Positions 18,395 to 39,322 of a stretch of 64,000 nt of DNA are shown here, one piece after another. This stretch comes from an uncultured bacterium. Its GTDB lineage: Bacteria > Verrucomicrobiota > Kiritimatiellia > PWTM01. Every line of letters starts with the position of its first letter. Within the stretch, counting starts at the first letter, position 1. The notes beneath the pieces were generated by a model. That model worked only from the letters and a program-made list of their open reading frames with translations. It was not told the DNA's origin and did not search any database. The position numbers and the translations under genes are program-made. Where the stretch lies: NCBI GenBank assembly GCA_938010045.1, contig CALLFZ010000003.1, positions 124,001 through 188,000 on the forward strand. Reading direction: 5' to 3'.

Positions 18395-18718
18395 GGTCGT
18401 CACTCCTGAGGTCAGCATGGCGCGGAACGGAGAGCCGTGTCAAACGCGAGCCGAGTACGACAGTGCGGCGGAAGAATCAGCTGGAAATCGAGGTGTCGGC
18501 GAAGGGAGGCGAACATCGTTTACCCCAACGGCCCCGCACCATTCGCCGCTGTCTCTCGCCCCTCGGGTGCCCCGTTACCAGAGGGGGCTGCGCTGACGGG
18601 TCTGCGGGGACGGGTCTGCGGGGACAGGCACGTCGTGTCGGCCGGGCACTCGGCGATCGTCGCCTCTCGTAAGCCGCCACGGGGTCGTCACGGGGGACAG
18701 CCCCACGCGCACCGCGCT

Positions 18719-18759
18719 GTAGCTCCGGCGCTCCGCCGCCGGAGCGATGCGCGCGAACT
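18719..18759 (+). repeat. hairpin module TGTAGCTCCGGCGCTCCGCCGCCGGAGCGATGCGCGCGAACT, copy 1
   Basis: Imperfect inverted repeat GCTCCGGCG…CGCCGGAGC; also at 19060 (+), 38685, 38792 and 39134 (reverse). Confidence 0.8.
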
Positions 18760-18956
18760 TGGGACATGGACCGCGGGCTAGGGACCGCGGGCTAGCCGTG
18801 GGGACATGGCCGTTGGGGACAGGCACACACTTCGTGGGGGCTTTCCAGGTGCCTGTCCCCCGTTTGGGGCCCGCGCGGACGGAGGGCAGGTGGGGAGGGC
18901 TGAGGGGGGCTGATGGGCCGCCCTTGGGGACAGGCACACACTTCGAGCAGGCCATT

Positions 18957-19100
18957 GGGGACAGGCACGAGCGCAAACGACGCAACAATCTCGCTTTCAA
19001 TCTACTGTGACTTCTTGACTGGTGCCTGTCCCCCGTTTGGGACCCACGCGCACCGCCGCTGTAGCTCCGGCGCTCCGCCGCCGGAGCGATGCGCGCGAAC
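18957..19100 (+). repeat. about 145-nt composite core shared with cluster 2 in inverted orientation
   Basis: GGGGACAGGCACGAGCGCAAACGACGCAACAATCTCGCTTT…CTTCTTGACTGGTGCCTGTCCCCCGTTTGGGACCCACGCGCACCGCCGCTGTAGCTCC… matches the reverse complement of 38779-38948 with small indels. Confidence 0.85.
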
Positions 19101-19449
19101 TGGGGGCCGGGACCGCGGGCTGGCCGTTGGCCGTTGGGGACAGGCACCTGGCAGGCTTGATGGATCGCTGTTGGGGACGGGTACGCCTGGGGCGCGGCAG
19201 CGCGGACGGAGGGCGGGTGGGGAGGGCTGAGGGGGGCTGAGGGGGGCTGGTGGGGACAGGCACGTCGTGTCGGCCGGGCACTCGGCGATTGGCGCCTCAC
19301 GTAAACCGCATACAAGCGCTGAGCCGAGCGTGACGGTCGGAGTCTGCTTTCGGCCCAGGCCTATCCCCGGTCTTTGATTGGGGATAGGCACAAGTGCATC
19401 GCGACCCCTCGTCCCAGGCCTCAAAACAATCTACAGCGCAATCGGCTCG

Positions 19450-21783
19450 TTAGACGCTGCGTGGCCGGCCCGCCACCCATGCCTGTCCAGCTGCGATCCC
19501 GCCGTCGTTGGGCGGAATGGCGCGGTTGACGAGAACGCGGAAGCCGTCCGCCTCCAGACGCTGTGTGGTTTCGTCGTGGAGAATCCGATTCATGAACACG
19601 CCGCCGGTGAGCGCAACGACTCCGCAGCCGGTGCGTTCGCGGCCGTACCGCGCCATCTCGGCGGCTGCCGAGGCCAGCGCCTCATGCACGGCGCGGGCCA
19701 TCGCGGCAGCATCTGCGACGCCGCGGCCGAGTTCGAAGAGGTCCGCGAAGAGTGGTGCCCAGTCCACCACGAGCCGGCCGTCCTTCTCCTCCGCGCGCCA
19801 CCACGCCCCGGCGGGCGTGGCGGAACGGGCGGCGCGTGCGGCCAGACCCTCAAGGCGGATCGCGGTTTGGCCCTCGTAGGTCACGCGGCGCGGCGCGACG
19901 CCCAGCGCCGCGGCGACTGAGTCGAACACGCGGCCGGCCGCATGCGTGAGCGGGGCGAGGGGTGTGCTGGCGGCCGACCGGCTCCAGATCTCGAGTTCGG
20001 CATCGGTCAGCTCCAGCGCGCGCCGCCACTGCTCGCCGGGCCGCAGCCCCATCGCGGCCCAGCGCGCGATAATCTGGCGGCGCGGATCAAGGACCGCAGC
20101 GTCGCCGCCGGGCAGTGGGGCGGGCGCGAATGTTGCAAGGCGTTCGAAGCGAGCCGCATCGGGCAGCCAGATCAGCTCGGCACCCCAAATCCGGCCGTCC
20201 GGCCCCAGCCCCGTACCATCCCACGCCAGCGCGAGCAACCGCTCCTCGCCGTGCTCCGCCATCACCGAGGCCGCGTGGGCATGATGGTGCTGCACCTCGA
20301 CGAGCTCGGCGCCGAGACGCACGGCCATCTCGCGGCCGAGCCGCGTTGAGTGGTAGTCCGGATGAAGATCCACCGCGACGGCAGCGGGCACGATGCCGAG
20401 GAAGCGGGGCAGGTGCTCGGCGACGAGCCGCAGATGTTCCACGGCGTCGGGGTCGTCCAGGTCGCCGATGTGCGGTGAGAGATGGAGCTCCTGGCCGTCC
20501 GCGACGGCGATCGCGTTCTTCAATTCTGCGCCCATCGCGAGCACGGCGCGCCGCAACGGTCGAGCCACCGCGAACGGCCGTGGCGCCAACCCGCGCGCGC
20601 GCCGCCAAAGCTGCGGACGGCCCGAGCGGATCGCGACCAGCGAATCGTCCGCTCGGAATCGGATTTCGCGATCATGCAGCAGGAACAGGTCCGCGACAGC
20701 GCCCAGTTCCCGGAGTGCCTCCTCGTTGCCGAGGCAGATGGGCGCTCCGCTGCGGTTGCCGCTGGTCATGATGAGCGCGTCGAACCGCGGCGCCGGATCG
20801 CCCGCGAGCGGCTCGGCCAGCAGCCATTGGAGTGGCGTCACGGGCAGCATTACGCCGAGGGTGTGCGCGTCGGGTGAAATCACGTCCACGGGCAATGGCG
20901 GATTGGGCTTTGGATCGAGGATTACGATCGGCGCCTCGGCGGAGCAGAGTAGTTCTTCGGCGGCGGGCGGTACTTCGCAGATCCGCCGCACGGTCTCGAT
21001 TGAGCGCGCCATTACCGCGAAGGGTTTCGAGGGCCGCCGTTTCCGCTCCCTGAGCCGAAGGATCGCCGCGCGGTTCGTCGCATCGGCGGCCAGCAGAAAG
21101 CCGCCTAAGCCCCGCAGCGCGACGATGCCGCCTGCCGCAAGGACCGCGCGCGCACGGCGAATTGGGTCGCCTTCGAGCGGCCGGCCCGCGGAATCCGTTG
21201 CCCAAAGCCGCGGGCCACAGCAGGGGCAGGCGATGCTTTCGGCGTGATAGCGGCGCGAGGCGGGGTCCTCATATTCGCGCCGGCAATCGTCGCAGAGCGG
21301 GAAGACGGCCATCGTCGTTCGCTCGCGGTCGTAGGGCGTGTCGAGGATGACGGTATAGCGCGGACCGCAATCGCAACAGGTGGTGAACGCGTAGCCGTAG
21401 CGCCGGTCGGCGGGGTCCATCACCTCGGCGCGGCAGGCCGGACACATGGCCAAATCCGGCGGCACCCGTGGACGCGCGACGGTCGCGCTCTCGCTCTCCT
21501 CGATCCGAAAATCGGCTGCCGCTTCCTCGGCACGAATCGGTTCGCGCCGGATTCGCACCACGCGCTCGATGCGCGCGCGGGGTGGCGCGTGTCGCTCGAG
21601 CGAGGCAATGAACTCCTCGACCCGCTCCGCCGGACCTTCCAGGACCAGCCGCACGGTTCCGCGCTGGTTGGCCACGCTCCCGCGCAGGCCCGCCGCGCGC
21701 GCGCAGCGGGCGATCGTGGGACGAAAGCCCACCCCCTGCACGGTGCCCGAGATGTCGAGAACTTCTCGCGTCCAGCCGTTCAT
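19450..21783 (-). CDS. hypF: carbamoyltransferase HypF
   Basis: Acylphosphatase domain (ISGTVQGVGFRPTIARCA), CPACRAEVMDP / CCDCGPRYT zinc fingers, YrdC-like and Kae1-like domains (VEVQHHHAHAASVMAEHG). Confidence 0.95.
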   Translation of the reverse strand: MNGWTREVLDISGTVQGVGFRPTIARCARAAGLRGSVANQRGTVRLVLEGPAERVEEFIASLERHAPPRARIERVVRIRREPIRAEEAAADFRIEESESATVARPRVPPDLAMCPACRAEVMDPADRRYGYAFTTCCDCGPRYTVILDTPYDRERTTMAVFPLCDDCRREYEDPASRRYHAESIACPCCGPRLWATDSAGRPLEGDPIRRARAVLAAGGIVALRGLGGFLLAADATNRAAILRLRERKRRPSKPFAVMARSIETVRRICEVPPAAEELLCSAEAPIVILDPKPNPPLPVDVISPDAHTLGVMLPVTPLQWLLAEPLAGDPAPRFDALIMTSGNRSGAPICLGNEEALRELGAVADLFLLHDREIRFRADDSLVAIRSGRPQLWRRARGLAPRPFAVARPLRRAVLAMGAELKNAIAVADGQELHLSPHIGDLDDPDAVEHLRLVAEHLPRFLGIVPAAVAVDLHPDYHSTRLGREMAVRLGAELVEVQHHHAHAASVMAEHGEERLLALAWDGTGLGPDGRIWGAELIWLPDAARFERLATFAPAPLPGGDAAVLDPRRQIIARWAAMGLRPGEQWRRALELTDAELEIWSRSAASTPLAPLTHAAGRVFDSVAAALGVAPRRVTYEGQTAIRLEGLAARAARSATPAGAWWRAEEKDGRLVVDWAPLFADLFELGRGVADAAAMARAVHEALASAAAEMARYGRERTGCGVVALTGGVFMNRILHDETTQRLEADGFRVLVNRAIPPNDGGIAAGQAWVAGRPRSV

Positions 21784-38444: not shown

Positions 38445-39322
38445 GGGGACAGGCACCACAACCGGCACCACAACCAAACAAGTGGGGACAGGAACCACAA
38501 CCAAAAGAGTGAGAGGGAGAGATTCGTGCGTAGCTCGCGCATGTGCCTGTCCCCAGTTACGGAGTGGGGACTTACGGAGTGGGGACAGGCACTCCCTCCT
38601 CGCCCCAGGGCAGGCCCGACCGCCAGACGCCACTCCTCGCCCTACATGCCCGGGCCCAATGGGGACAGGCACCAGGAAACCCTCGCTCCGGCGGCGGAGC
38701 GCCGGAGCTACAGCGGCTGGAAGTGCGTGCCGGAAGTGCGTGCCTGTCCCCAAGGGCGGCTCGGGGTCCCTGTCCCCAGTTCGCGCGCATGGCTCCGGCG
38801 GCGGAGCGCCGGAGCTACAGGGGCGGCGCGCGTGGGCTCCAAACGGGGGACAGGCACCGGTCAAGAAGTCAAGAAGTTACAGTAGAAGATGTAAAGCGAG
38901 ATTGTTGCGTCGTTTGCGCTCGTGCCTGTTGCGCTCGTGCCTGTCCCCAATGCCTGTCCCCAATGGCAGTCCACAATGCCTGTTGCGCTCGTGCCTGTCC
39001 CCAATGGCAGTCCACAATGGCATAGGGGGCAGCAAAGGGGACAGCAAAGAGGACGGCCCAAGGGGGCCCAAGGGGACAGGCACCTGGAAACCCAAGGGGA
39101 CAGGCACCAGGAAACCGGCACCAGGAAACCCTCGCTCCGGCGGCGGAGCGCCGGAGCTACAGCGGCGGTGCGCGTGTGCCTGTCCCCATGACGACTCCAT
39201 GGCGGCTGGCGCGAGGCGACGATCGCCAAGTACTCTCTGCGCCCACCCAGACTGCCTGTCCCCGGCAGACCGACCATCCGCCCCCGAGCTCTGTTCCCAA
39301 GGGCCGCGAGGTGCCTGTCCCC
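38445..39322. repeat. composite repeat cluster 2, inverted relative to cluster 1
   Basis: GGGGACAGGCAC or its complement at 38445, 38543(-), 38581, 38661, 38740(-), 38846, 38937(-), 38991(-), 39072, 39096, 39176(-), 39311(-); hairpin module at 38685, 38792 and 39134. Confidence 0.85.
38779..38948 (-). repeat. inverted copy of the 18957-19100 core
   Basis: Reverse complement GGGGACAGGCACGAGCGCAACAGGCACGAGCGCAAACGACGCAACAATCTCGCTTTACATCTTCTACTGTAACTTCTTGACTTCTTGACCGGTGCCTGTCCCCCGTTTGGAGCCCACGCGCGCCGCCCCTGTAGCTCC…. Confidence 0.85.

Follow-up and report, generated by a model that had tools for sequence, protein, structure and literature searches.

At position 18957 of the window (the whole 64,000-nt stretch of DNA analysed, from an uncultured bacterium of the Kiritimatiellia) begins a 77-nt unit bounded by inverted 12-mers, for which an earlier note had proposed two roles, i.e., a transposition substrate or a structured RNA; which of the two it is, and what would have multiplied it, is the question that this locus raises. 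Read from the sequence, the unit (18957-19033) has the form GGGGACAGGCAC-53 nt-GTGCCTGTCCCC, with an exact left terminal inverted repeat GGGGACAGGCAC at 18957-18968 (plus strand), an interior at 18969-19021 (plus) and the exact reverse complement of GGGGACAGGCAC as the right terminal inverted repeat at 19022-19033 (minus), as previously described. The profile match for this family, herein family A, covers 18952-19041 on the plus strand (nhmmer, E=3.9e-28), with similarity extending a few bases past the 12-mers (..CGATT on the left, ATTTGGAGC on the right). The original extent of 18957-19100 holds for the unit itself, up to 19033; the remainder, to 19100, is mainly a separate repeat, a GTAG-type REP hairpin at 19061-19086. 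This hairpin, GTAGCTCCGGCGCTCCGCCGCCGGAG, recurs among the 12-mer units elsewhere in the window (18719-18744, 38686-38711, 38793-38818, and 39135-39160) and has 97 copies in the genome within 2 mismatches; in the own-genome DNA examined, itself chosen around 12-mers, 31 of 31 hairpins matching the strict pattern lie ≤300 nt from a 12-mer.

The window holds further copies of the unit. The core is indeed preserved in both 12-mer clusters, with an inverted copy at 38846-38948 that is 86% identical over the aligned part (feature at 38839-38948, minus strand; nhmmer 38929-38839, E=1.4e-19; 12-mers at 38846 [plus] and 38937 [minus]) and carries the small local duplications reported for it, i.e., doubled AGGCACGAGCGCAAC and CTTCTTGA, plus an extra TCT. 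A third, degenerate copy (38480-38558, minus strand; E=3.2e-9) had escaped the first reading. A shorter inverted 12-mer pair of 46 nt (18815-18860), the right end of which is 96% identical to that of the core, is probably a derivative of family A by internal deletion or recombination, judging from this likeness. Altogether, 28 sites for the 12-mer (≤1 mismatch) were counted in the window versus 0.43 expected by chance, with the clusters located in the spacers between genes.

Far from being unique and non-repetitive, as had been supposed, the core has 24 long matches (80-100% identity) in a genome-wide search, and hence is present at further loci. The genome contains 460 exact copies of GGGGACAGGCAC and 0 of the reversed control; some copies stand alone, while others form dimers or groups. 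Through a profile search of ~221 kb of own-genome DNA, which contains 252 of these 460 12-mers and thus about half of the repeat-bearing DNA of the genome, 39 full-length, non-overlapping family A copies were recovered (consensus: ATTGGGGACAGGCACATGCGCAGACGACGCAACAATCTCGCTTTCAATCTACTGTGACTTCTTGTCGGGTGCCTGTCCCCATTTGGAGC), most of the intact ones having an interior of exactly 53 nt and thus a length of 77 nt. Averaged over the alignment columns of these 39 copies, conservation falls from 95% in the ends to 80% in the interior and ~60% in the 12 nt flanking the unit; moreover, a second family of 19 units in the same ~221 kb has the same ends around another interior (CACCTCTCTGGGCGCAGTGGGCGC...). 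As the ends are more conserved and the interiors exchangeable, the conserved and recognised part of the unit is the end, which displaces the interior from its suggested position as the functional heart of the element. Given that family A copies differ from one another by up to 20% or more, present-day activity is not established by this family.

These same copies bear on the proposal of a structured non-coding RNA or riboregulator, closed by the 12-mers as a stem. The 12-bp ends of the unit are able to pair, giving ~-30 kcal/mol for all 77 nt; the interior (-4.7 kcal/mol) is less stable than its shuffles (-7.5). RNAalifold analysis of 38 distinct copies recovered part of the terminal pairing for one strand and no structure for the opposite strand, which does not surpass column-shuffled controls, and the 38-sequence family A alignment shows no covariation. 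Rfam returned no match to the unit, the only matches in the window being two tRNAs. With single-sequence folds, Rfam, and column-shuffle-controlled consensus folding of 38 copies all negative, and with interiors that are exchangeable between units, a structured RNA was rejected and is in our view highly improbable. The case is a caution against taking conserved intergenic blocks of this sort for regulatory RNAs.

Comparison with related genomes places the amplification within a single species. Only 2 of 145 sampled genomes of the phylum carry >3 copies of the 12-mer, namely the window genome (460) and a congener, G002 (30), while the other 143 contain 0-3 copies each; across three congeners, the counts are 30, 0, and 1. 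The abundance of the 12-mer is thus a patchy, lineage-specific expansion. In another congener, G001, the two genes flanking the first cluster are adjacent, separated by a spacer of ~65 bp, such that the ~1-kb interval of repeat units at 18450-19450 in the window is missing from the orthologous position. For the second cluster, an empty site could not be sought in G001, as synteny is broken there; likewise, neither an empty site for a single element nor a target duplication was resolved, because the intergenic DNA of the congener is too diverged. The ends found in G002 enclose other interiors and so give no source for the interior of family A. Were the 12-mer instead a host protein-binding or chromosome-organisation site accumulated by selection, the intergenic location of the window clusters would be accounted for, yet the steep drop from 460 copies to 30, 0, and 1 in congeners and to near zero in the phylum would not; equally dense, orthologously placed sites are absent from the congeners, and the recurrence of a fixed 53-nt interior in 39 copies implies that a unit was duplicated, not that a site was selected. 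We thus give this reading almost no weight.

What the ends belong to is indicated by other genomes. Across ~85,000 species genomes, a search for inverted 12-mer pairs revealed (among the matches listed, hence as a lower bound) pairs with unrelated interiors in Caulobacter, Collinsella, Lachnospiraceae, Planctomycetota, Acidobacteriota, Omnitrophota, Bacillales, and others. A Y1_Tnp (HUH) gene is present in 23 of 24 genomes bearing such pairs; as such genes are common, with 28 of the window genome's 38 relatives having them, this co-occurrence is weak evidence by itself, with position being the stronger. The exact 12-mer, in convergent orientation, flanks a Y1 gene on either side in 4 genomes, a number that rises to 6 if one mismatch is tolerated; the corresponding values are a mean of 0.005 loci for permuted 12-mers and ~1.2% for random positions in unit-bearing loci. 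Of the 64 Y1 loci examined, most lack this exact frame and have variant ends (e.g., GGGGACAGGTAA, GGGGACAGGCTA, GGGGACACAAAC, and GGGGACAGACCC) or none. Proteins framed by the 12-mer keep the HUH (NHxH) and Y---N motifs, and C-terminal helix-turn-helix similarity is found in some of them and not in others. In several loci from Lachnospiraceae, Collinsella, and Firmicutes (L042, L044, L061, L084, and L057), the 12-mer often sits in a hairpin loop with variable complementary stems, far above base-shuffled controls; this architecture is absent from the window genome, where hairpin-loop presentation of the 12-mer is at chance level.

When inverted repeats flanking Y1 genes were sought in the class of this organism without recourse to the motif, ends such as TTGGGGTCAGCCC and GGGGTCGCATC emerged. 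Loci from genomes of the same class or family (L014-L020) have Y1 genes with inverted ends of 16-21 nt starting with GGGGTCAG or GGGGTCGC and are apparently intact TIRtrons. Y1 genes with such ends in the same class mean that the same kind of system circulates in this lineage. One genome of the class (G036, 4.8 Mb) has unusually many Y1_Tnp matches (86 scored, 232 candidates).

Family A, with its inverted ends, many copies, and short constant length, would also suit a conventional MITE, i.e., what is left of a DDE insertion sequence with 12-bp ends after internal deletion, with a target duplication. We consider this unlikely, as these ends frame Y1 genes across several phyla and GGGGACAG fits the published TIRYT/TIRtron consensus GGGGWSAS, while the aligned family A flanks show no conspicuous direct repeat that could be a target duplication. 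In favour of the earlier idea of a transposition substrate are (i) the dispersal of a unit of fixed length, multiplied in one species, (ii) its conserved inverted ends, (iii) its absence at the orthologous site of a congener, and (iv) the match of its ends to those framing HUH genes elsewhere and to TIRYT ends. The 77-nt unit is very probably a MITE- or REPIN-like element that is non-autonomous and depends on a TIRYT-type Y1 (HUH) transposase acting in trans.

A resident enzyme of this type is represented by relics. In the 98%-complete assembly, a Pfam search detected no Y1_Tnp match over the cut-off, and a profile built from the framed proteins retrieved from this genome only truncated or stop-containing remnants. 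One of these, an N-terminal Y1 fragment that has lost the HUH motif (C4:93316-93540; L218 1781-2062, G000:C4), gives way directly to a 12-mer cluster, as though cut off by it; another (C1:3588-4027) is a Y1 copy with a broken frame. As some 12-mers are no more than a few dozen bases away from a contig end, an intact Y1 gene may sit in an assembly gap. With remnants in place of an intact transposase, we infer a cognate enzyme that acted here earlier, its gene then being lost, decayed, or left unassembled; the gene may have disappeared once amplification had taken place, or a transient enzyme may have done the mobilising.

Such an element would work as follows. The inverted 12-mers on either side of 53 nt of non-coding filler would serve as the recognition sequence of a transposase, and a TIRYT-type Y1 enzyme, its gene framed by GGGGWSAS inverted repeats, would mobilise this unit in trans. 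The enzyme would nick the ends, probably on single-stranded DNA in which the two 12-mers pair, and paste the unit near existing copies, thereby building clusters. The duplicated blocks inside certain copies resemble products of ordinary replication or recombination slippage between short repeats.

A wider proposition, which we raise tentatively and hold to be possible rather than probable, is that the sharing of one end, GGGGACAGGCAC, by Y1-framed elements of many phyla, together with its hundreds of copies here without a resident Y1 gene, reflects broad horizontal spread or a recognition constraint. If so, interiors and proteins would differ widely while a 12-base end stays essentially unchanged across phyla, pointing either to interchangeable enzyme/end pairs that spread horizontally very widely, their units being mobilised in trans by transient transposases, or to a strong recognition constraint fixing the end. 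Little work has been done on TIRYT repeats, a branch of the HUH/REP world; this genome offers a large and well-defined family, its unit constant in length and its end sequence clear, and the loci from other phyla provide candidate enzymes with matching ends, making the idea that TIRYTs move these repeats directly testable.

Among known systems, classical MITEs are likewise short, non-coding, multicopy, and bounded by terminal inverted repeats; they differ in that the enzymes associated elsewhere with the present ends are HUH/Y1 and not DDE, and in that a target duplication was not seen here. In REPINs/BIMEs with their RAYT transposases (Bertels & Rainey 2011, PMC3116915), what is dispersed is likewise an inverted pair of a short recognition repeat, and a Y1 enzyme moves it in trans. 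The GT[AG]G foot on a hairpin REP was not found for the present 12-mer, which lacks a GTAG and forms no hairpin of its own, the GTAG hairpin family being separate from, and interleaved with, the 12-mer units. TIRYTs have been described as proteins with GGGGWSAS ends and dispersed families of such ends (Di Nocera et al. 2013, PMC3733652), and were later equated mostly with TnpA-Y1 subclass 2.1, for which no REP hairpins were reported (Quentin et al. 2018, PMC6006769); a literature search for the exact 12-mer returned a single, unrelated paper. The present units share with TIRtrons/TIRYTs their GGGGWSAS-fitting ends, the single, dimeric, and grouped occurrence of the repeats, the framing of Y1 genes by the same ends elsewhere, and framed Y1 genes in relatives of the organism. 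Unlike them, 460 exact end copies are present here, versus families termed "moderately abundant" by their authors (PMC3733652), and no intact resident transposase accompanies the fixed 77-nt inverted dimers with their common interior. Likeness in working, i.e., to a REPIN or MITE moved in trans by an HUH enzyme, is thus better supported than strict TIRYT/TIRtron membership, because the resident enzyme, the one defining feature of the latter that was looked for and not found, is missing. What is new is an unusually abundant family within the already known TIRYT/TIRtron kind.
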